Positions 3,649 through 15,172 of a DNA stretch of 64,000 nucleotides are shown here, piece by piece. The translations under genes and the position numbers were made by a program. Position 1 is the first letter of the stretch; each line of letters starts with the position of its first letter. Where the stretch lies: the NCBI RefSeq assembly GCF_002797675.1, contig NZ_PGEX01000001.1, positions 1,302,001 to 1,366,000 of the forward strand, given 5' to 3'. The notes under the pieces were generated by a model. The model worked only from the letters and a program-made list of their open reading frames with translations. It was not told the DNA's origin and did not search any database. Source of the stretch: Hallerella succinigenes. Lineage in GTDB: Bacteria > Fibrobacterota > Fibrobacteria > Fibrobacterales > Fibrobacteraceae.

Positions 3649-4632
3649 ATGAAAATTGCAGTCATCGGCGGTGCCGGCTATATTGGATCTCATACTGTAC
3701 GTGAACTTTTGGATGCAGGTCATAAAGTCCACGTTTTCGACAATCTTTCTTCCGGACTTGAACAGAACCTTTTCCCAGAAGCTGGATTTACAAAGGGTGA
3801 CATCTTAAGCCCGGCAGAACTCGACGCCTTCTTCAGCAGCTTTCAGCCAGAAGGCCTAGTGCACCTCGCCGCTTTCAAGGCAGCAGGCGAATCCATGACG
3901 AATCCGGAAAAGTACAGCGTGAACAACATCTCCGGTTCCGTGAACATTCTGAACGCCGCGTCCGCGCATCATGTGAAGTACATCGTTTTCTCGAGCTCCG
4001 CTGCCACCTACGGTTCTCCAAAGTACATGCCGGTCGACGAAAAACACCCGACCGATCCGGAAAACTATTACGGCTTTACGAAGCTCGCCATCGAAAAGTT
4101 CCTCAAGTGGTACGACGATTTGCGCGGCATCAAATTCGCCGCCCTCCGCTACTTTAACGCCGCAGGCTATGATGTCAAAGGTCGCATCAACGGTCTCGAA
4201 AAGAATCCGGCGAACCTCATCCCGGTCGTCATGGAAGCTTTGACCGGTAAGCGCAGTGAAGTACTCGTATTCGGTAACGACTACGACACCGCAGACGGAA
4301 CAGGCGTCCGTGATTACATCCACGTGAACGATCTAGCCCGCGGCCACAAGATGGCATTCGACTACTTGCAAAAGAACAACCAGAGCCTCGTCGTGAATCT
4401 CGGTACGCAGACTGGCGCAAGCGTTCTCGACATCATCCATGGCGCCGAAAAGGCTTCTGGCAAAAAGGTTCCTTACCGCATCGTGGAACGCCGCCCAGGC
4501 GACCCGGCAAGCCTGATTGCAAACCCGGCAAAGGCAAAGGAAATCCTCGGTTGGGAAGCCAAATATTCCGATCTCGACACGATCCTTTCCACAACCTGGA
4601 AAGCTTACCTCGCCAATGGACTCGGCAAGTAA
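3649..4632 (+). CDS. galE: UDP-glucose 4-epimerase
   Basis: A 327-aa extended short-chain dehydrogenase. The NAD-binding GGAGYIGSH motif is at residues 7-15, a FSSSAATYG block supplies the catalytic Ser near 116, and a YGFTK sequence gives the Tyr-x-x-x-Lys pair near residue 140. The length matches GalE. It interconverts UDP-glucose and UDP-galactose for surface glycans. It starts 38 bases after uup, with a GAGG ribosome site at 3640, and may share that transcript. A strong hairpin follows the stop codon. A related 4-epimerase specificity such as UDP-GlcNAc cannot be excluded from sequence alone. Confidence 0.92.
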   Translation: MKIAVIGGAGYIGSHTVRELLDAGHKVHVFDNLSSGLEQNLFPEAGFTKGDILSPAELDAFFSSFQPEGLVHLAAFKAAGESMTNPEKYSVNNISGSVNILNAASAHHVKYIVFSSSAATYGSPKYMPVDEKHPTDPENYYGFTKLAIEKFLKWYDDLRGIKFAALRYFNAAGYDVKGRINGLEKNPANLIPVVMEALTGKRSEVLVFGNDYDTADGTGVRDYIHVNDLARGHKMAFDYLQKNNQSLVVNLGTQTGASVLDIIHGAEKASGKKVPYRIVERRPGDPASLIANPAKAKEILGWEAKYSDLDTILSTTWKAYLANGLGK

Positions 4633-4655
4633 ATCCATTTTGAAATTCAAACAGA

Positions 4656-4684
4656 AAAGGCTCCCGAAACGGGAGCCTTTCTTG
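4656..4684. terminator. Bidirectional intrinsic terminator between galE and purM
   Basis: An 11-bp perfect stem (AAAGGCTCCCG pairing with CGGGAGCCTTT) closes on a three-base loop. It has T-rich sequence on the plus side and A-rich sequence on the other, so it can end both convergent transcripts. Confidence 0.85.
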
Positions 4685-4705
4685 TAAGCTTTCGAAATCT
4701 CGAAA

Positions 4706-5731
4706 TTAGTCGCGGAAGAGAACCTTCTTGGAACCTTCGACAACTTCACCGACATGGTAGAACGGTTCGTTCTTCGCCTTGAGGTGAGCTTCTACATCAG
4801 CCATGTTAGCGTCGTCCACGAAGAGGAGCATACCGATGCCCATGTTGAACGTGCTGTACATTTCGTCCTTTTCGACAGAGCCCGCTTCCTGGATGAGCTG
4901 GAAAATCTTCGGAACCTTCCAAGAGGTTCGATCGATCACGACGTCCACGTTGTCCGGGAGGATACGCGGAATGTTGCCCTGGAAGCCCGAACCCGTCACG
5001 TGTACGAGGCCGTCGAGCTTCTTCGCATTCGTGAGATCGATGAGACTCTTGTAATAGCTGCGGTGCGGAACCGTGAGAGCTTCGCCGATCGTCTTGTCGA
5101 GGCCTTCCACGCGGGAATCCACCTTGTAGCCGGCGACATCGAAGAGAGCCTTACGGGCGAGGGAGTAACCGTTCGTGTGAAGACCGGTAGACGGAAGACC
5201 GAGAATCTTTGTACCCGGATGAATGCGAGAGCCATCGATGATGTTTTCGCGTTCGACAACACCGACGATCGTGCCAGAAATATCGTAATCGCCGACCGTG
5301 TACATGCCCGGCATTTCAGCGGTTTCACCACCAATCAAGACCATGTCGTTTTCACGGCAAGCCTTGGACATGCCTTCCACGATGCCCGTCATCACCTGCG
5401 GGTCAAGAGCGCCCATGGCAACGTAGTCGAGGAAGAAGAGCGGACGTGCACCCTGAACGAGAATATCGTTGCAGCAGTGGTTCACAATGTCCTGGCCCGG
5501 GAGCGTCGGGGTGTTCATTTCGATGTCGACCTTGAGCTTCGTACCGACACCATCCACAGAGCTCACAAGGACCGGATCCTTGAGACCAAGATGCTTCAGA
5601 GTGAAGAGGCCACCGAAGTTGCCAACGTCACCCAGCACGCACTGGTTGAACGTGGAACGGACGGACTTCTTCACGCCGACCATTGCCTCGTCTGCACGAG
5701 AAAGGGAAACACCTGCGTCTGCATAATTCAT
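4706..5731 (-). CDS. purM: Phosphoribosylformylglycinamidine cyclo-ligase (AIR synthetase)
   Basis: A 341-aa PurM/SelD-fold ATP-dependent enzyme of purine synthesis that closes FGAM to AIR. It opens MNYADAGVSL, the near-invariant PurM start. It contains the VDGVGTK glycine-rich segment, the FFLDYVA block, the GGETAEMPGMY motif and the GIVGVVE-like central strand, with GLHTNGYSLAR after it. Length and motif order are normal. The neighbouring upstream gene is a cNMP-binding protein with no purine role, so purM seems to be a stand-alone housekeeping gene here. Confidence 0.95.
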   Translation of the reverse strand: MNYADAGVSLSRADEAMVGVKKSVRSTFNQCVLGDVGNFGGLFTLKHLGLKDPVLVSSVDGVGTKLKVDIEMNTPTLPGQDIVNHCCNDILVQGARPLFFLDYVAMGALDPQVMTGIVEGMSKACRENDMVLIGGETAEMPGMYTVGDYDISGTIVGVVERENIIDGSRIHPGTKILGLPSTGLHTNGYSLARKALFDVAGYKVDSRVEGLDKTIGEALTVPHRSYYKSLIDLTNAKKLDGLVHVTGSGFQGNIPRILPDNVDVVIDRTSWKVPKIFQLIQEAGSVEKDEMYSTFNMGIGMLLFVDDANMADVEAHLKAKNEPFYHVGEVVEGSKKVLFRD

Positions 5732-5752
5732 ACGATTTTTCCTTTGGTTGAA

Positions 5753-6553
5753 TTAATTCTTTTGCTGGGACTGCTTCTCGTCGATATTTCTCAAAGCGTC
5801 CAAAATTAAACTGGTCGTATCGGACTGCTGACTGATGTTGATCGTATCCGGCATCAGGTGCGTGTCCAACTTAAAAAGGGTATTATCGCTCCAAGAGAGC
5901 ATGAGTTCCAAAGCGTCCGGACCGGCAAGGCGTCCGCTCTTTGCACAGCAAATACGGCCTTCCTTGAACGCGATAAAGCCTGTTTCACCGTTGCATTCAA
6001 ACAGAACGGTACCCGTCACACGGCTCTTTTCGAGAGTTTGCGCAAAATCGATGAACGGAAGGACCTTGGCACTTGCGAGAAGGGAAAGGCTTTCGAATTC
6101 GTCGAGAGCCTGATTCTTGGCGCGGAGACGGTCTGCGGCAATCTTGTACAGGCAGACCATGATGCTCGGATTCTTTTCAAGGAACTTGATGAACGAATCG
6201 CGGGAAAGGTGCAACACGGTGCAGTCTTCCAAAGCGACGACGGTATTGCTCGTCTTCTCGTTGCAAAGAATCGACATTTCACCGAAGCATGCGCCCGCTT
6301 CGAGCCAGCCCAACGAATTACAACGTCCATTTGCCATCATTTGACCGCAAATTTGCGCACGGCCGCTCTGCAACACGCAGAACGATTCGCCTTCGCGATC
6401 GCCCGTAATAATCACATCACCCGCTTCATATTCACGAATCTGGGAATTCAGCAAAAAGAAGTCAGCGGATTCACGCGGAATCTGTTGCAGAAAGGGAACT
6501 TCTCTTTCATAAGAAGCTGAAATCCAATCACCGATACTAGAATGAGCTGTCAT
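5753..6553 (-). CDS. Cyclic-nucleotide-binding domain protein with C-terminal DUF4388 domain
   Basis: A 266-aa soluble protein. Residues of about 30-150 form a Crp-like cyclic nucleotide-binding fold, with GDVIITGDREGESFCVL-type turns and a GACFGEMSILCNEKTS phosphate-binding cassette. About 165-266 resembles DUF4388/PatA-N (a TGTVLFECNGETGFIAFKEG core followed by a helical tail), a module common in deltaproteobacterial and Fibrobacter signalling proteins. No DNA-binding helix-turn-helix follows the sensor, so it is not a classical Crp transcription factor; it more likely passes the signal through protein contacts. It begins 5 bases downstream of the binding-protein gene on the same strand, suggesting an operon. 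Confidence 0.75.
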   Translation of the reverse strand: MTAHSSIGDWISASYEREVPFLQQIPRESADFFLLNSQIREYEAGDVIITGDREGESFCVLQSGRAQICGQMMANGRCNSLGWLEAGACFGEMSILCNEKTSNTVVALEDCTVLHLSRDSFIKFLEKNPSIMVCLYKIAADRLRAKNQALDEFESLSLLASAKVLPFIDFAQTLEKSRVTGTVLFECNGETGFIAFKEGRICCAKSGRLAGPDALELMLSWSDNTLFKLDTHLMPDTINISQQSDTTSLILDALRNIDEKQSQQKN

Positions 6554-7881: not shown

Positions 7882-8718
7882 ATGAAAAACAGAACACTTT
7901 CCATTCTTCTTTTCGTCGCAAGTCTTTGCGCTATAACGACTTCCGCATTTGCAGAGCCTGAAGAAGGTTTCTATGAAAAGCATGATATTCGCGGATTCAT
8001 TTCTTTTGGCGCAGACTACCGCGGCATGCGTAGCGCTTACGCAGACTACCTGAACAAGGTGCTTTTCAACAAGAACCAGGGCTACATGGTTCAAGAAGTC
8101 AATGCCGACGGCGACACCATAACAACGATCAAACCGGATGGTTCTATCGGAAGCTACGAACACTTCAACGACTACTACCTCGGTATGCACGTGGAAGTCG
8201 GTGCGCAGTACCACCAGTTCCTCACCTGGTTCGACATCAACTTTATGCCGACTCAGATCTCCGATAAGCCTTCTGCCAAGAGCAGCGCAAGCAAGGACCT
8301 TTACGATGTGAAGTGGTTCGCTTACGGCATCGATTGGATGTTCGGCTGGAAGCTCTTCGGCGAAAATACAGTCATCAACCTGATTCCCTCCTTCGGTATC
8401 GGTTTCAACCTCCTGAACATTCACCTCGCTTCCAATTATGATTTTGAATCGAGCGATGGCACTTATGTCAACGCTCGCAACCGCTACTACAGCGTCTTCT
8501 CCCCGACCTTCAACAGCGAACTCGAATTGCGTCTCGCCTTCGACCCGTTCTCGATTGGCGTCTACGGCGGTTACCGCGTCATCCGTTTCAACGAGTTTGA
8601 CGTGGAAGGCGCAAAGCTCGGCGATCCGGACAACAACGGAGACACCTACTTTATTGGCGCAAAGGTAACCTGGACGTTCCTCTCGGAAAACCAGAAGAAA
8701 CTTCGCGATAAGCTTTAA
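7882..8718 (+). CDS. Outer-membrane beta-barrel protein, unknown role
   Basis: A 278-aa exported protein. The chosen ATG gives a clear signal peptide (MKNRTLSILL core, cleavage near TTSAFA). An upstream in-frame GTG at 7828 would bury that signal, so it was rejected. The mature part is rich in alternating aromatic/polar strands (for example HVEVGAQYHQFLTWFDINF and IGVYGGYRVIRFNEF) and ends in a tyrosine-rich strand region, typical of a small porin-like barrel. I do not recognise a specific family. Its 3' end overlaps the convergent NYN gene by 68 bases, and its terminator lies inside that gene. Confidence 0.7.
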   Translation: MKNRTLSILLFVASLCAITTSAFAEPEEGFYEKHDIRGFISFGADYRGMRSAYADYLNKVLFNKNQGYMVQEVNADGDTITTIKPDGSIGSYEHFNDYYLGMHVEVGAQYHQFLTWFDINFMPTQISDKPSAKSSASKDLYDVKWFAYGIDWMFGWKLFGENTVINLIPSFGIGFNLLNIHLASNYDFESSDGTYVNARNRYYSVFSPTFNSELELRLAFDPFSIGVYGGYRVIRFNEFDVEGAKLGDPDNNGDTYFIGAKVTWTFLSENQKKLRDKL

Positions 8719-9364
8719 TCTTCAATCTCGGAGATAGAAAGAGTTCTTGAGCCAGCACATCGGTGCTGGCTTTTTTCATAATCTGTTCCATCGGTACAAA
8801 GTAAGTGGCGGCACGTCTCAAGTCCTGATCTGTGTGCCAGTGGACTTCGCGGTCGCGGTTGTGATAGACAAAGTTCCAGCCGAGCAGAAGCGTCTGGATT
8901 CCCATGGATGCAAGCGTCTGCGGAACGGTGGCGAACTGTCCTTGCGTACTTACAAGCACAAGAGCGTGTAGCTGATGGTACTGCGCATACAGCATTACAT
9001 CTTCTTTGAGTTCTAAGTTTGGGCAAAGGTCGTTCGCATAATTGACACCTGCGAAATGCACGTCGTAGCCAGCCTTCTTGAGCTCGTCCGAAAAGTACAT
9101 CATGCCGCGGTGGCGGTAATCGTTATCCTCTTCGGGATTGCGGTAGGGATGGTAATAATGCGCCATCATTTCGATTGCATGTCCGGGCCAAAAGTAGCGG
9201 CTCGCTTGAACGGCGACCCAATGCTTTAATCCTAAAAAGTTGATGCCCGAACATTCCGGATTTGCACTCCGGTAATATTCGTTGACCTTGCGCATGGTAA
9301 AGCCATCGACGAAAAGCCCCACTTTGAGCGGGGCTGTGTTACCTTGGAATTTGGATTCTAACAT
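8651..9364 (-). CDS. NYN/LabA-like (PIN-superfamily) domain protein
   Basis: A 237-aa soluble protein. The opening VGLFVDGFTMRKVNEYY carries the first acidic residue of the NYN nuclease fold. Later blocks YAQYHQLHALVLVSTQGQFATVPQTLASMG and IQTLLLGW fit the expected second acidic/Ser-rich loop and Rossmann-like strand of the LabA/DUF88 group. In the second loop, where active NYN nucleases usually have SGDxD, the sequence is STQGQF, so catalysis is doubtful. The last roughly 22 residues are read through the end of the beta-barrel gene. The ribosome site AAGGAGG sits in a hairpin. Confidence 0.65.
   Translation of the reverse strand: MLESKFQGNTAPLKVGLFVDGFTMRKVNEYYRSANPECSGINFLGLKHWVAVQASRYFWPGHAIEMMAHYYHPYRNPEEDNDYRHRGMMYFSDELKKAGYDVHFAGVNYANDLCPNLELKEDVMLYAQYHQLHALVLVSTQGQFATVPQTLASMGIQTLLLGWNFVYHNRDREVHWHTDQDLRRAATYFVPMEQIMKKASTDVLAQELFLSPRLKIKAYREVSSGFPRGTSRLPLRQ
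8750..8777 (+). terminator. Intrinsic terminator embedded in the convergent NYN gene
   Basis: The stem AGCCAGCAC pairs with GTGCTGGCT across a four-base loop and is followed by six T on the plus strand. The minus-strand side has no U run, so it should end only the beta-barrel transcript. The same bases encode a KKASTDVLAQE stretch of the NYN protein. Confidence 0.75.
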
Positions 9365-9367
9365 AAA

Positions 9368-9396
9368 AGGGTTCCCTCCTTGTAAAGTGGAACCCT
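9368..9396 (-). promoter_or_regulatory. Hairpin overlapping the Shine-Dalgarno of the NYN gene
   Basis: On the minus-strand RNA, AGGGTTCC pairs with GGAACCCT. The AAGGAGG ribosome site lies in the loop and runs into the 3' arm, 10 bases before the start codon. It could reduce translation or respond to a ligand or protein; no known element was recognised. Confidence 0.4.
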
Positions 9397-9413
9397 CTTA
9401 GGAATAAGACGTT

Positions 9414-9447: not shown

Positions 9448-11010
9448 TTACAAAACGCCCGGAGTCGGCTCCTTCGCTTCCCAGTTCGAAGGTTCATAAC
9501 CCGAGATCGTGTAATCGATACGATTCAAGCTGTAACCTTTACCGTCCGCTTCTTCCGGCCAAAGGCCGCCGTCGGAGTAGAGGAGCGCATCGGAGACGTG
9601 GTAGTAGACAATCGTCGAATCCTTCAGGTCCTTTGCCACTTCGGAAGGTTCTTCGACCGAGACCTTTTCGCCGCGGTTCGAAAGCTTACCCGTATACTGG
9701 AAAACCTGAACGGAATCGGCAAGCACGCCTTCCCACTTTTTGCGGAATTCGTCTACAGTAATGCTCACCGACGTGTAACCGTCCGTATCCGTATAAGAAG
9801 ACGGGATAAGGACTGCGACTTCACCTGGTTCGAGCGTATGGTTCTCTCCAAATTCAAAGCCGACACCGCCGATTTTCCAGCCTTTGTAGCTCAAGTTGAG
9901 CATAGGGCGGAGCGTTACCGTCGAATCACCCTTGTTCACGATTTCAAGGAATTCCACGTCGCCGTCGAGCGGATTGTAGAAGACTTCGCTGATGTAAATC
10001 GGTCCGAGATCGATTTCGGAATTCCTAGCGCCTTCAGTCGGTTTCTGCAAAGTTCCCTGCTGGGTCGACCCGTCGGAAAGTTCGATTACGCCGGCAGAAA
10101 GCCCCGTCGGGACGGCGGAATATTCCATGCCCGATTCCACACCGGTCACTTCACCATCCTGCACTTCACGCAGGTAAACCGCTTCACCGCGGGCGACAAA
10201 AGAAACGCTTGACTCGTTACCGTCTTCCGTAAGGAGCGTGTGCAAAGAAAGGTAAGCGCCACCCGCAATCGTCGTTCCGCTCGGAATGTAACGGACGCTG
10301 TCTTTTGCGTCAGCACGGACAACCTTCCATCCGCTGATGTCCGTTTTCGAAGTTCCCGCATTGTAAAATTCAATCCAGGAGCCGGTTTCGTCGCTGTGGT
10401 ACGGCATGATTTCGTTGATGCGCACCGAGGAAGTTGCATAATAAGGATCTTCGGTCGAACCCGGATTTCCGTTCACGATCTTGCTCGCCGCCCAGGATTC
10501 CGCATAGGCAGGATTTTCTCCCATGTAAACGAGAGAGCTCCCATTGCCATCGGCAAGACTTGGCCAAGGAGGATTGTTGTCGTAACGGGCGTCAAAGTCG
10601 CCTTTACCGTCGAGCTTCACTTCCAACACGTCGCCCGAGTTCGAAAGCTTAAAGCCGGCGTCCCACTGGAACAGGCGCCCCTTGTAATCCGGATACTTTT
10701 CACGGAAAAGCGCCGAGTCTTCCGTCACCACGATGATTTCACCCTTGTCGAGTGCTTCATCGGGGAACGTAAATTCCACAGCGCCGTCCAAACGCAAATT
10801 CACGTTGGACATGCTGGAAAGGGATGTTCCCGAAAGGGTGAGTTCCACAAATTCCGGATAGCCGTCCGCCGGATGATACATGAGTTCCGTCACGGCCATC
10901 GCCGGGATCGAAACGGTACGCGTTTTTCCACTGCTGCTTTCGGAGCAGGCTGTCATGGAAAACGTAGAGAGCATGGCGGCGGAAACCGCCAAGGGTAATA
11001 TTTTTTTCAT
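9448..11010 (-). CDS. Lipoprotein with three lamin-tail-like domains
   Basis: A 520-aa envelope lipoprotein. It has a signal peptide with lipobox STACS-like TAC near residue 22, then three beta-sandwich repeats of the lamin-tail (LTD) type, each opening with an xITELMYHP / RINEIMPYH / YISEVFYNP strand and a following EFVEL / WIEFYNAG / EFLEIVNKG strand (about residues 35-130, 190-290 and 330-445). LTD modules are often linked to CotH-like or nuclease domains; here no kinase or nuclease follows. It is the last gene of a five-gene operon, overlapping the VTC gene by 4 bases (ATGA), so it is translationally coupled. It probably acts at the cell surface as a binding or scaffold partner of that system. 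Confidence 0.75.
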   Translation of the reverse strand: MKKILPLAVSAAMLSTFSMTACSESSSGKTRTVSIPAMAVTELMYHPADGYPEFVELTLSGTSLSSMSNVNLRLDGAVEFTFPDEALDKGEIIVVTEDSALFREKYPDYKGRLFQWDAGFKLSNSGDVLEVKLDGKGDFDARYDNNPPWPSLADGNGSSLVYMGENPAYAESWAASKIVNGNPGSTEDPYYATSSVRINEIMPYHSDETGSWIEFYNAGTSKTDISGWKVVRADAKDSVRYIPSGTTIAGGAYLSLHTLLTEDGNESSVSFVARGEAVYLREVQDGEVTGVESGMEYSAVPTGLSAGVIELSDGSTQQGTLQKPTEGARNSEIDLGPIYISEVFYNPLDGDVEFLEIVNKGDSTVTLRPMLNLSYKGWKIGGVGFEFGENHTLEPGEVAVLIPSSYTDTDGYTSVSITVDEFRKKWEGVLADSVQVFQYTGKLSNRGEKVSVEEPSEVAKDLKDSTIVYYHVSDALLYSDGGLWPEEADGKGYSLNRIDYTISGYEPSNWEAKEPTPGVL

Positions 11011-11849
11011 GCAAAGATCTCCTTCGAATCTTCAAAGTTACCTGCCAAATATGGGAAGCGCGCATCGCGGAAGTCCTTCGGCTTTTCGTAAACGCGTTTC
11101 CATTCGGCAGCTGCATTTCCGAACTTAGAAAATGCGCCATGCTTTAAATTAAAACGACGAATCAAATCGAGCATCCAATAAGGTACCTGCAAAGCCGGAC
11201 ATTTGAGTTCAAGCACAGCATTGCAGTCCTTTTGGAAGAATCTCGGAATACCCGTAGACCACATTTCCTGCGGATTCACGGTATAATCGAAGCCGTTTTC
11301 TTCGCGGAAGCGCATTCCCATATCGATCGTCACACGGGAATATTCTTCGCGAGTGCCGAACCAGGCGCGACGCTTGTACTGCGTGAGCAGTCTCGGATGT
11401 GCATTGTGCAGCCACGTCTTGTTCAAGAATTCGCGGATGTATTTGCGGTCCTGGTCCGTTTTGCACGGCCATTCCTCTTCCGGGTGTTCCCAGACAAAGG
11501 AAGGATTTACGCCTTTGATGGTTCCACGGCTCTTGTAGCAGACACGTCCGATTTTGCGTTTGCATTCAAAGTGAAAAAAGCCGTCATCGGCCGGATGTTC
11601 CCCATACGTGCGGACGCGCATGTTGAAACGGTCCAATAGCCCCGCCTTTTTCCAGCCGAGGAAAGTCCAGCGCGGCGAATCCAGGTACAAATTCGTAATC
11701 CAATAGAATTTACCCGGTGTGATTTTGGAATAGTAGTCCTCTTCACAGTACGGCTTCAAGAACTCGCCTATCTCGTCGGCGAGTGATACTGGAATATGAT
11801 ACTTGAGCTCGAATCTTTCGAGCAGGCTGAATCCGCGCGCTTCACTCAT
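11007..11849 (-). CDS. VTC-domain polyphosphate polymerase-like protein
   Basis: A 280-aa protein of the VTC/triphosphate-tunnel type. The signature RFELKYHIP is at residues 12-20, RVRTYG with two basic residues at 78-80, and ECKRK (Glu95, Lys97) follows. These are the charged residues that line the tunnel in TTM-fold enzymes. Yeast VTC4 makes polyphosphate from ATP, and bacterial homologues are annotated as polyphosphate polymerases. There is no signal peptide or membrane segment, so it would act on the cytoplasmic face. It overlaps both neighbours by 4 bases. The chain length and product are unknown. Confidence 0.8.
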   Translation of the reverse strand: MSEARGFSLLERFELKYHIPVSLADEIGEFLKPYCEEDYYSKITPGKFYWITNLYLDSPRWTFLGWKKAGLLDRFNMRVRTYGEHPADDGFFHFECKRKIGRVCYKSRGTIKGVNPSFVWEHPEEEWPCKTDQDRKYIREFLNKTWLHNAHPRLLTQYKRRAWFGTREEYSRVTIDMGMRFREENGFDYTVNPQEMWSTGIPRFFQKDCNAVLELKCPALQVPYWMLDLIRRFNLKHGAFSKFGNAAAEWKRVYEKPKDFRDARFPYLAGNFEDSKEIFA

Positions 11850-13153
11850 TTTGCAGGTCCCGCTTTCAAATGATTCGTCACATCGGTACGCGCAAGCGCA
11901 CCCATTCTGTCGAGCATATCCAAGTAGATGGTAAAGATGTCCATATCGAGCTGAACAATCTTCAGCTGGCTCTGCAAGGAGCTTTCCTTGGCGCGCAAAA
12001 GAAGAAGAGGATCGTTGCCCGCCTTCGTCGCAAAGTCTTCGAAGAGCGCGCCCTGGTCCACCTGTTCCACGAACTTCTGCTGCACATCGCGTTCCGCGAT
12101 TAAGCCGAGGATTTCTTCACGCAAGCGTTCCACCTTCTGGCTCAAATCGCGCTTCGCTTCCTGGTAGTCGCGTTCGCTTTCGAGAACGTCAATCTGGCGC
12201 TTGAGGTTTGAATTGTCGTTTCCCGAGAAGAACGGCAAACGAATAGCGACAGAGGCATAGAACTTGTCTTGAGTTCTGCGGTCGTCGTCGGTACGCTGCA
12301 ACTGCCATTCTTCTGTGCAAGAAGAACCAGAGCAGGACTGCGTCACCCATTTGTACTTGTACTTTGCATGCACGTACTTGTAGCCGACGCCGATCTTCGA
12401 AATGAAATTGCGTTCACCGGCCGCGTCCTGGCCCGCCTTCTTTTCGTTCACCAGCCACTTGGCTTTCGCGGCGGCGACGTCGGCGTACTTTTCCGCATCC
12501 ATCGGCATGTCCTTCAGAATACTCTTCAGCTCATCTATCGTCGGAAGAAAATTCGAATCGATCGAAACGGAATCGTATCCCTTCACAAACGAAAGGAGCT
12601 TGAGTTTCGAATCGTTCATCGAGTTCGAATCCGCCACGAGCTTTGCACTGATCGCAGCCTGTTCTTCCATCGCCGTCACCAGGTCCTGCAAACGAAAGGT
12701 TTCAGAACCCGCCAGCGCCTGCAAGACTTCAATGCGGTCCGCGGCGATCTGAGCGAGCTGTTCATGGATCAAACGGATCTGCTGGCGCAGCACGTAACGC
12801 AGAGCGTGTTCATAACGTTCAAACATCACTGCGGAACGGTCGTAGTTCATCAGCGCACGCTGATACTCCACCTGGCTCTTCCAGTAAGCTTCATCCGCGG
12901 ATCCTTCGCCAAACGCCTTCGGCTTGATCTTCAACTCGAAATCATGTTCAAGGAATCCAAAACCGTCGAGCGTATATTCAAACTCGAGATCATCCCAAAG
13001 TCTGGTGCAAGAACGGCCCCCGATAGCAGTCTGCTTCTTTTGCGAAGCCTGAATAACGGGATCTTCATCCGCAGACGCAACGAGCTTGTCCCACGTGAGA
13101 GGCTCCGCGACAGCGCATGCCACGAGAATCCCGCACCAAGCTAAAGTTTTCAT
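11846..13153 (-). CDS. TolC-family outer-membrane efflux protein
   Basis: A 435-aa exported protein with a short signal peptide (MKTLAWCGILVACAVA). The rest is mostly long amphipathic helices with two repeat-like halves, for example MNYDRSAVMFERYEHALRYV and KLKRQIDVLESERDYQEAKR-type coils, as in TolC/OprM channel proteins. A strand-forming segment with FYASVAIRLPFFSG lies near residue 290, typical of the membrane-spanning barrel. A Cys pair in TQSCSGSSC (near 270) is unusual. It sits immediately after the HlyD-type gene with a 4-base overlap, so the two should form an envelope-spanning pair. Confidence 0.75.
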   Translation of the reverse strand: MKTLAWCGILVACAVAEPLTWDKLVASADEDPVIQASQKKQTAIGGRSCTRLWDDLEFEYTLDGFGFLEHDFELKIKPKAFGEGSADEAYWKSQVEYQRALMNYDRSAVMFERYEHALRYVLRQQIRLIHEQLAQIAADRIEVLQALAGSETFRLQDLVTAMEEQAAISAKLVADSNSMNDSKLKLLSFVKGYDSVSIDSNFLPTIDELKSILKDMPMDAEKYADVAAAKAKWLVNEKKAGQDAAGERNFISKIGVGYKYVHAKYKYKWVTQSCSGSSCTEEWQLQRTDDDRRTQDKFYASVAIRLPFFSGNDNSNLKRQIDVLESERDYQEAKRDLSQKVERLREEILGLIAERDVQQKFVEQVDQGALFEDFATKAGNDPLLLLRAKESSLQSQLKIVQLDMDIFTIYLDMLDRMGALARTDVTNHLKAGPAK

Positions 13154-14250
13154 TCCTGACCTCCCTGGATCGCAGAGTTTTCCAAGATCTTCGGCATTTT
13201 GCTTTTTTCCGCAATCGTCACTTTTTCGCCGAGAAGGAGACCGTTCTTGTCCGGAACGCGAATCATCACTTCACGACCGTAGAGCGGCATATCGACCATC
13301 TTAAGCAAACGGATCGGATACGGAACGATGCGGCTCGACATTCCAAGCACTTCACCATCCATGCGTTCACCGGAACCGCTGATCACTTCGATCGCGTCAC
13401 CGACCTGGATGCGGGTGTACACCTTTTCGTTGATGTAGCCGCGCACGAGAGTCACCGCCTTGTGCGTCAAAGTGATGATCGGGTTGTAGCTCGAAATTTT
13501 TTCGCCGTCACGCGCTTCCACAGTCGCCACGACCCAGCCTTCCTTGGCGATGATCGTCAGTTCCTGCTGTTGCTGCTTCAGGATGTCCATTTCGCGGCGG
13601 AGCGCTTCGGCTTCCGTCTTGTTGCTGGACTTTGCAAGGCCCTTGCTACCGCGCAGAAGACGGATCTGGGAAGCGGCATTCGATTCCGCAATTTTCAATT
13701 CCTGCTTCAGATTGCGAATGGAAAGCAGAATACCATTCGAGCTGTCTGTCTTGATCGAAGTCGAAATGCTCTTGAGCTTCGAAGAAATCGCCTTGTTCTG
13801 TTCGTACTGCTGACTGAGCTTGTCAATTTCAAGAAGAATCGTATTGCGCTTGATGTTCAAATCCGATTGAATGCTCGCCACTTTCTGATCGATGTCCGCC
13901 GAATTCAAATTGGTACGGCCTTCGAGAGCGTCGAGTTCACGGGTAAGCTCGTTCATACGCACAGCAAGATCCGGACGGCTGAGTTCCACAAGCGTATCGC
14001 CCGCCTGAACTTCCTGACCAGGAATCACGTGAATTTTCACGACTTCTACCGCTTCCGGCATACTGACAGTCGTTTCCGCAGCTTCCGCAATACCCGAGAA
14101 CACAATCTTCTGACCGTGGAAAAAATAACCGAGGGCAATAATCGACGCGACCGCAAAAATCCAAGCGATAAGCATCTTGTGCGATTCGATTGCATGAAAA
14201 CGCGAAGAGTTCAGATCTGCCAATTCGTCTAATTTTTTAGAGAAACCCAT
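13150..14250 (-). CDS. HlyD/RND-type periplasmic adaptor (membrane fusion) protein
   Basis: A 366-aa protein. One N-terminal membrane helix (about 28-47) is followed by a split lipoyl/barrel-sandwich motif (HVIPGQEVQAGDTLVELSRP near 120 and a second half near 240), separated by a long coiled coil of about 110 residues. A beta-barrel follows with the YINEKVYTRIQVGDAIEVI strand. This is the architecture of HlyD/EmrA adaptors. The expected inner-membrane partner, an ABC or MFS pump, is missing from the operon; the DUF4956 membrane protein takes that position 9 bases upstream. Confidence 0.82.
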   Translation of the reverse strand: MGFSKKLDELADLNSSRFHAIESHKMLIAWIFAVASIIALGYFFHGQKIVFSGIAEAAETTVSMPEAVEVVKIHVIPGQEVQAGDTLVELSRPDLAVRMNELTRELDALEGRTNLNSADIDQKVASIQSDLNIKRNTILLEIDKLSQQYEQNKAISSKLKSISTSIKTDSSNGILLSIRNLKQELKIAESNAASQIRLLRGSKGLAKSSNKTEAEALRREMDILKQQQQELTIIAKEGWVVATVEARDGEKISSYNPIITLTHKAVTLVRGYINEKVYTRIQVGDAIEVISGSGERMDGEVLGMSSRIVPYPIRLLKMVDMPLYGREVMIRVPDKNGLLLGEKVTIAEKSKMPKILENSAIQGGQE

Positions 14251-14259
14251 GATAGCCTC

Positions 14260-14943
14260 CTACACTTCCGTCGTCGCGTCTTGCATCATGAAGTGAATGT
14301 CCGAAATGCCCGGGACCAGAGTCAGCTCCTTCAGCACTTCATTTGCCGGGCGCTTGCGGCGCAGTCGAACCTGGTAGGCTACATCAATGCGTTCTCCTCC
14401 GTCCACCTCTCGCATCGTAATCAGCACAAATGTCTTGATATTCGCCCGCATAATCTTTTCTAACTGAGCGCGGGATTCCGAATTATTCGGCATTGCAAAA
14501 CGGAGCATACCGTCGAAGAAATTCTTGGTACCGAGTCCCGAACGGGAAAGCACAAAAGCGATTACACAAAAGGTCAAGGTTCCACCCGCAGCGATACCCC
14601 AGGCAAACACACCGCAGCCGATGCCCGCGCCGAGTGCCGCAAACAGGAACATGATATCGCGCGGATCCTTGAAGCTCGTTCTGAATCGAACGATGGAAAG
14701 CGCACCGAGCATACCGAGACCACGACCCACATTATCACCGATCGCCTGCATCACCGTAGCTGCTACCACGGAGCTCAACACGAGCGCCTGCACAAAATTC
14801 CTCGAATACGAAAGACCGAGGAAGGTATGTTCATAGGTAAAACCAATCGCTGTAGAACAGACGAAAGCGAGAAGCAGCGTGTACGCCATCGTAATAACGG
14901 TCGGATAAGCTGCGCTAGATTGGACTGTGAGAAGATCTAACAT
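14260..14943 (-). CDS. DUF4956 multi-spanning membrane protein
   Basis: A 227-aa protein with about four membrane helices in the first 140 residues, then a soluble ferredoxin-like C-terminal domain. The block GRGLGMLGALSIVRFRTSFKDPRDIMFLF is characteristic of DUF4956, which genomes often pair with VTC-domain and CotH or LTD genes. The start chosen is the ATG at 14943 with GGAG six bases upstream; an upstream TTG at 14955 would lack a ribosome site. It is the first gene of the operon and may be a membrane channel or sensor for the VTC partner. A hairpin (CCTGAA/TTCAGG, 14966-14983) lies in its leader. Confidence 0.8.
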   Translation of the reverse strand: MLDLLTVQSSAAYPTVITMAYTLLLAFVCSTAIGFTYEHTFLGLSYSRNFVQALVLSSVVAATVMQAIGDNVGRGLGMLGALSIVRFRTSFKDPRDIMFLFAALGAGIGCGVFAWGIAAGGTLTFCVIAFVLSRSGLGTKNFFDGMLRFAMPNNSESRAQLEKIMRANIKTFVLITMREVDGGERIDVAYQVRLRRKRPANEVLKELTLVPGISDIHFMMQDATTEV

Positions 14944-15172
14944 AATGCACTCCAAAAGGTTATACCCTGAAATTAGATTCAGGCAAAACGGAACGCATCC
15001 AAATAAAAGTTTAAAAAGCGCATTTTCACCCCATTCCGTAGGTCAAAAAGCGCCCTTCGGGATTTTTCATCCCTTTTACATTCAACTTTCTGAAATTTCG
15101 CAAGAAAAGGAGCGACAAATCCGCCCCTTTTCCCACAAAACCATCCCGATTTGGAACTTTTACGCCCAGTCG
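14944..15172. other. Intergenic leader between nhaA and the DUF4956 operon
   Basis: This 229-base gap has no credible gene. It holds the 14966-14983 leader hairpin and a GGGATTTTTCATCCC hairpin near 15059 that may end nhaA transcription. It must also contain the operon promoter, which I could not place with confidence. Confidence 0.4.

Follow-up and report, generated by a model that had tools for sequence, protein, structure and literature searches.

The clustering of a VTC gene with genes for DUF4956 and CotH proteins is already known from Gram-positive bacteria, in which a cotH-PPP(VTC)-DUF4956 set adjoins the pel genes (PMC7112168). Deletion of the DUF4956 gene or of cotH in Streptococcus intermedius altered the level of Pel and aggregation, neither gene was required for Pel, and Pel persisted after deletion of the VTC gene; the three-gene order VTC-DUF4956-CotH was reported not to be found outside Pel loci (PMC12345266). 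In yeast, VTC synthesizes polyphosphate in the cytosol and passes the growing chain into a membrane channel lined with positive charge (PMC9911596). Here we describe a VTC gene in a five-gene cassette within a 64,000-nucleotide stretch of the Hallerella succinigenes genome (contig NZ_PGEX01000001.1, positions 1,302,001 to 1,366,000; hereafter the window), where it lies with genes for a DUF4956 inner-membrane protein, a HlyD-type adaptor, a TolC-fold outer-membrane factor (OEP) and a lipoprotein with lamin tail domains (LTD). We found no description of such a trans-envelope VTC cassette with HlyD and TolC in open-licence papers, nothing relevant in the literature on bacterial VTC, VTC in Fibrobacter or polyphosphate export via TolC, and no assigned function for bacterial VTC or DUF4956 in the literature recovered. 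We know of no established dedicated exporter for bacterial extracellular polyphosphate.

Organization and spread of the cassette

The five genes are arranged on the minus strand from 14943 to 9448 in the order DUF4956, HlyD, OEP, VTC, LTD. Pfam supports each of the open reading frames (ORFs), and the sequence confirms the ORFs and junctions of the original prediction, which had been made from the letters of the window alone, with a 9 bp gap between DUF4956 and HlyD and 4 bp overlaps at the remaining three junctions. An AGGAGG lies 6 nt 5' of the HlyD ATG. For DUF4956, the ATG at 14943 is conserved in the alignment (MLDLLTVQ), and a TTG at 14955 merely gives the longest ORF. The dN/dS values between near relatives indicate purifying selection on each of the five genes, at 0.04-0.16 for LTD, VTC, OEP and HlyD, and 0.013-0.02 for DUF4956.

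A scan of 151 Fibrobacterota genomes found VTC in 121, after which 40 VTC regions were read. The gene order is identical across the Fibrobacteraceae genera that carry this type of cassette and is seen again in further classes of Fibrobacterota, while the neighboring genes vary between genomes; the nearest named relative is Fibrobacter intestinalis. A profile of the cassette HlyD run on 84,980 species genomes yielded 56 loci, including ones from Desulfobacterales, Calditrichota and Woeseia. All five genes are present in 62 of 76 loci with the cassette HlyD, a partly redundant set in which some genomes were reached twice, and the four-gene core is present in a further 8. Contig ends truncate another 5, and a single exception (L116, 4055-9501, plus strand), in a Chitinispirillaceae metagenome-assembled genome (MAG), has a HlyD-propeller gene, OEP and LTD without VTC or DUF4956 behind a two-component system.

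The four-gene core occurs in Fibrobacterota, Desulfobacterota, Calditrichota and Gammaproteobacteria. Few genomes outside the Fibrobacterota carry the cassette (4 of the 297 in the phylum sample for Desulfobacterales, 1 of 39 for Calditrichota, and 3 of 369 in the class sample for Woeseia), a rarity that suggests some horizontal spread. These carriers are mostly MAGs whose host names may be wrong where contigs are short, and Woeseia, on a 3.6-Mb contig, is safe. Five further loci read in Desulfobacterota and Gammaproteobacteria all have HlyD, a gene at the OEP position (a weak match in L143, E value 3.6e-5) and VTC; DUF4956 is present in four of them, and the fifth, L140, is on a contig that stops 0.9 kb after VTC. 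The four core proteins covary in their pairwise identities (r 0.94-0.97), as expected of co-inheritance, with a contribution from shared ancestry. An assembly accident was rejected as the origin of the gene block, which is seen in many genomes. The retention of the order across the phylum and in other phyla, the variation of the flanking genes and the purifying selection on all five genes together argue that the cassette is not a chance assemblage.

Polymerase, membrane protein and conduit

The VTC gene (11007-11849; PF09359, 103.5 bits against a Pfam cut-off of 23) is the only one in the genome (a 3.127-Mb contig). A phmmer search of the PDB with the single sequence gave no match, whereas a profile built from 20 cassette VTCs matches yeast Vtc4 structures (3g3q) with an E value of 1e-8. 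Residues K16, R78, R80, K97, K106, R160, R172, E214, S241 and K242 are invariant in the 20 proteins, and in the profile alignment R78, R80 and E214 correspond to Vtc4 R264, R266 and E426, substitutions of which have been used to inactivate yeast VTC (PMC9911596). The product is a soluble TTM-type protein of 280 aa that comprises only the VTC domain, with neither an SPX domain nor a transmembrane segment (highest 19-residue hydropathy 0.96). The equivalents of Vtc4 K281, K294, R361, R373 and K458, which we take to be further catalytic positions, are also invariant in the 20 proteins. The homology and the intact catalytic residues suggest that the cassette VTC polymerizes phosphate from ATP. PPK1 is present in the window genome and in two others among ten genomes checked, so the cassette is not simply a PPK1 replacement in H. 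succinigenes; for several carriers it may be the principal source of polyphosphate, a claim limited by MAG incompleteness and by other synthases.

DUF4956 (14260-14943, 227 aa; PF16316, 54 bits, cut-off 30.6) is the most conserved member of the cassette, with a mean column identity of 61% and the lowest dN/dS. AlphaFold2 predicts four transmembrane helices followed by a ferredoxin/ACT-like domain. Both arginines of the motif R86-x-R88 are conserved without exception across the 52 distinct DUF4956 sequences in the alignment, and the invariant residues specific to the cassette (T40, G43, L44, S45, R48, N49 and Q52) cluster in the loop between the first two transmembrane helices (TM1-TM2). If the ACT-like domain is cytosolic, as inferred from MgtC, this loop would be periplasmic and a natural docking site for HlyD. 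No solved relative was found with a DUF4956 profile among PDB sequences, and the best Foldseek matches in the PDB include the MgtC C-terminal domains 2lqj and 7qa5 at a modest E value of 1.5e-3; the NCBIfam MgtC/SapB model matches at 4.6e-5, far below its cut-off. Regulation is the role usually ascribed to MgtC proteins, and the inner-membrane channel that the original prediction saw in DUF4956 is a hypothetical one.

DUF4956 genes also occur in other settings. On Sinorhizobium meliloti pSymA (L148, 5308-7678, plus strand) one directly follows a gene that appears caspase-like by eye, with no VTC nearby, and here DUF4956 has other partners. On a Hymenobacter plasmid (L145, 4757-8012, plus strand) the genes for a HlyD-like adaptor, DUF4956 and a TolC family protein are consecutive and the plasmid has no VTC, an arrangement suggesting that DUF4956 may be the inner-membrane partner of the adaptor.

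The HlyD adaptor (13150-14250, 366 aa; PF13437, HlyD_3, 26.1 bits, cut-off 22.2) has by hydropathy a single N-terminal transmembrane segment at about residues 26-44, followed by a lipoyl/barrel-sandwich domain with a coiled coil, and its alignment reveals a family-specific C-terminal motif (GSRIVxxPxRLRK...WGREV...LLGEKV). It most resembles EmrA, with profile matches to the EmrA structures 4tko and 8zar. The OEP (11846-13153, 435 aa; PF02321, 28.9 bits, cut-off 22) matched no PDB sequence by profile and required a fold search; its AlphaFold2 model (pLDDT 84.8) has the TolC fold (Foldseek E value 1e-13, TM-score 0.68), and the 44 Foldseek matches at E values of 0.001 or below are outer-membrane factors.

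Pfam revealed no gene for an energized pump within the operon or directly beside it in the window, and in loci from four phyla a pump gene is never a constant member of the cassette. The original prediction was right to call a HlyD-TolC pair without a pump unusual, yet this is a fixed rule of the cassette family and not a peculiarity of the window genome. It had also held that a pump gene elsewhere that pairs with this HlyD-TolC would refute its reading. No EmrB-type pump exceeds the cut-off in 12 cassette genomes, the window genome included, and EmrB was rejected as a partner; ABC and RND genes elsewhere were not searched for. Genomes of the F. succinogenes type have a TolC-HlyD-two-permease operon immediately downstream of the cassette (L036, 885-6104, minus strand), whose permeases are ABC-2-like as judged from sequence, and which is absent from this position in other genera. 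It was rejected as the pump of the cassette, being lineage-specific and having its own HlyD and TolC.

The final gene (9448-11010, 520 aa; PF00932, 110 bits, cut-off 34.3) encodes the LTD lipoprotein, with a lipobox (...SMTAC-S) and three lamin tail domains, seen as PF00932 matches in three stretches. Type I secretion of this protein through HlyD-TolC was rejected, as it has a lipoprotein signal. The window operon has no CotH gene, and four CotH genes lie elsewhere in the genome. In distant relatives CotH kinase genes are found directly upstream of the cassette or inside it (L053, L059, L061, L065, L068, L119, L124, L125, L141 and L142), and in L117 and L142 an LTD-CotH fusion protein is encoded upstream. 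The original prediction was right that VTC, DUF4956 and CotH/LTD genes cluster. Monoderm loci carry only VTC-DUF4956-CotH, as on a Planococcus plasmid and in the Gram-positive pel loci (PMC7112168).

Other parts of the cassette vary. A beta-propeller-like domain with weak phytase-like, SdiA-regulated and DUF3616 matches is fused C-terminally to the cassette HlyD in L050, L061, L066, L116, L127, L142, L143 and L144; in L065 and L119 it has a gene of its own at the corresponding position. In L143, a locus of the gammaproteobacterial class, a PHO4-family anion permease gene (4245-5834, minus strand) lies between OEP and VTC and overlaps OEP by 8 bp.

In the window the cassette is flanked upstream by a gene for an NhaA antiporter and downstream by a weak NYN-like ORF (8651-9364). 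Directly 3' of LTD on the minus strand is a terminator-like hairpin with a T-rich tail (9364-9400; -20.8 kcal/mol, z -3.3, from folding of the strand) that overlaps the Shine-Dalgarno sequence of the NYN-like ORF. By this prediction the hairpin would bury that sequence, and could be a terminator, an attenuator or an element that hides the ribosome-binding site. Scans for promoters (1 promoter-like site, with 4.1 expected) and terminators (9 terminator-like sites, with 8.3 expected) performed no better than chance.

Possible export of a phosphate polymer and alternative readings

A plausible scenario, to which we assign a probability of roughly one half, is that the cassette is a co-inherited machine for cytosolic synthesis of a phosphate polymer and its direct passage out across both membranes. 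VTC would polymerize phosphate from ATP on the cytosolic side of the inner membrane, and DUF4956, bound to it there, would be the translocation module, taking the role of the membrane helices of yeast Vtc1/3/4 with its RxR motif facing the polymer chain. HlyD would dock on the cassette-specific TM1-TM2 loop and so link DUF4956 to the TolC-type channel. By analogy with yeast VTC, polymerization and the membrane potential could drive the anionic chain outward, which would make a separate pump unnecessary. The LTD lipoprotein, together with CotH in distant relatives, might hold or use the product at the outer surface. The data show the genes with their order and linkage, the conserved residues, two of the folds and a cassette that has no pump; the enzymatic activity, the contacts between components, the direction of export and the identity of the polymer are what we infer here. 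The role offered by the original prediction, in which polyphosphate would be exported or displayed and DUF4956 would be the inner-membrane channel, fits all of the findings and is partly supported; co-inheritance of the core in four phyla, the retained catalytic residues of VTC, the Hymenobacter locus and the lack of an EmrB-type pump above the cut-off in 12 cassette genomes lend it indirect support. The PHO4-family gene of L143 also counts in favor of polymer export. Its most specific version, in which synthesis by VTC powers transport, DUF4956 acts as the inner-membrane gate and HlyD-TolC forms the exit, and in which surface polyphosphate is held or used by LTD/CotH proteins and is perhaps a phosphate donor for CotH kinases, is tentative and falls somewhat short of an even chance.

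Several observations weigh against polymer export. The column of Vtc4 K455, a residue presumably also of catalytic weight, is not conserved in cassette VTCs, and we do not treat it as a defining residue. Our search of open-licence papers found no polymerase activity reported for a bacterial VTC, and with PPK1 in the H. succinigenes genome VTC is not the sole polyphosphate synthase there. The RxR motif is common to all DUF4956 proteins and thus not VTC-specific, the DUF4956 model is of medium confidence only (pLDDT 71), and the solved fold closest to it is an ACT domain of regulatory type. Together with the Sinorhizobium locus, the model and its fold match leave room for functions of DUF4956 other than that of a polymer channel. 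L116 combines HlyD, OEP and LTD without VTC or DUF4956, and NCBIfam scores for the PHO4 gene of L143 favor a CysP sulfate permease over PitA.

The likeliest alternative is that VTC and DUF4956 serve an exopolysaccharide or a phosphate-decorated glycan, and that HlyD-TolC exports this product and not free polyphosphate. The proximity of VTC-DUF4956-CotH to pel in Gram-positives and the changes in Pel level and aggregation in the S. intermedius DUF4956 and cotH mutants are in keeping with it, as are a Planococcus plasmid with the order VTC-DUF4956-CotH-hypothetical-HEAT-glycosyltransferase (no pel gene is annotated in the 12 kb read), a Fibrobacterota locus (L054) that adjoins chain-length and sugar-transferase-like genes as judged by eye, and the Cthe_2159 carbohydrate-binding lipoproteins of a second type of Fibrobacterota VTC locus. 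However, there is no glycosyltransferase in the window cassette or its immediate flanks, nor is one a constant neighbor elsewhere, and loss of the VTC gene did not stop Pel in S. intermedius; we consider this reading fairly unlikely.

The ACT-like domain of DUF4956, matching those of MgtC, also suits a scheme in which an MgtC-like DUF4956 regulates VTC, polyphosphate made by VTC is stored in the cytosol, and HlyD-TolC is served by a remote pump. MFS relatives are present in the genome, and the ABC-2-like exporter operon is just downstream of the cassette in F. succinogenes; that exporter, however, comes with a TolC and a HlyD of its own, and other genera lack it at this site. With no EmrB above the cut-off in 12 cassette genomes and four genes adjacent in four phyla, never with a pump as a constant member, such a scheme seems quite unlikely. 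Least probable, and improbable in our view, is that HlyD-TolC is a static envelope tether or carries other cargo (protein or lipid), with VTC-DUF4956 linked only for co-regulation by phosphate status: L116 and the relatives in which HlyD is fused to or adjoins the propeller-like domain lend it something, but the MAG of L116 also holds a full cassette (L122), the linkage is otherwise invariable in the 76 HlyD loci, and LTD, with its own lipoprotein signal, does not need the conduit.

The occurrence of the cassette in four phyla turns bacterial polyphosphate export into a testable four-gene hypothesis and gives DUF4956 a candidate role. If polymer export is correct, the cassette would represent a pump-free TolC system, and would tie an ancient polyphosphate synthase to surface proteins of the CotH/LTD kind.

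Comparison with known systems

A second type of Fibrobacterota VTC locus (L041, L042, L046, L057, L069, L071 and others) encodes a Cthe_2159 lipoprotein, VTC, DUF4956 and a Porin_O/P-like barrel (PF07396, just under the cut-off). It shares with the cassette a VTC-DUF4956 pair and an outer-membrane protein in diderm hosts, and differs in that the beta-barrel replaces HlyD-TolC and DUF4956 belongs to a different subfamily. The barrel of this second type and the absence of HlyD-TolC from monoderms are expected if the added parts are an outer-membrane exit.

In the pel-associated set of Gram-positives, VTC(PPP) adjoins DUF4956 as it does in the cassette, and there is a further likeness in the CotH genes at many distant cassettes and in the link between CotH and LTD. 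Unlike that set, the cassette has a fixed HlyD and TolC, diderm hosts and no pel or glycosyltransferase genes, and its LTD lipoprotein occupies the place where distant relatives add CotH. With the eukaryotic VTC complex (Vtc1/3/4) it shares a Vtc4-like TTM domain with the catalytic residues kept and a membrane partner, whereas its VTC lacks SPX and transmembrane helices, the partner is DUF4956 (possibly MgtC-like) and not Vtc1, and an adaptor and an outer-membrane channel are added. Like EmrAB-TolC and HlyBD-TolC, the cassette pairs an EmrA-like adaptor with a TolC-fold channel, but it has no MFS, ABC or RND motor, and DUF4956 (with VTC) stands in the motor's place. The cassette is best read as a bacterial VTC-DUF4956 module with added parts that carry it through the outer membrane, in which synthesis would be coupled to export through DUF4956.

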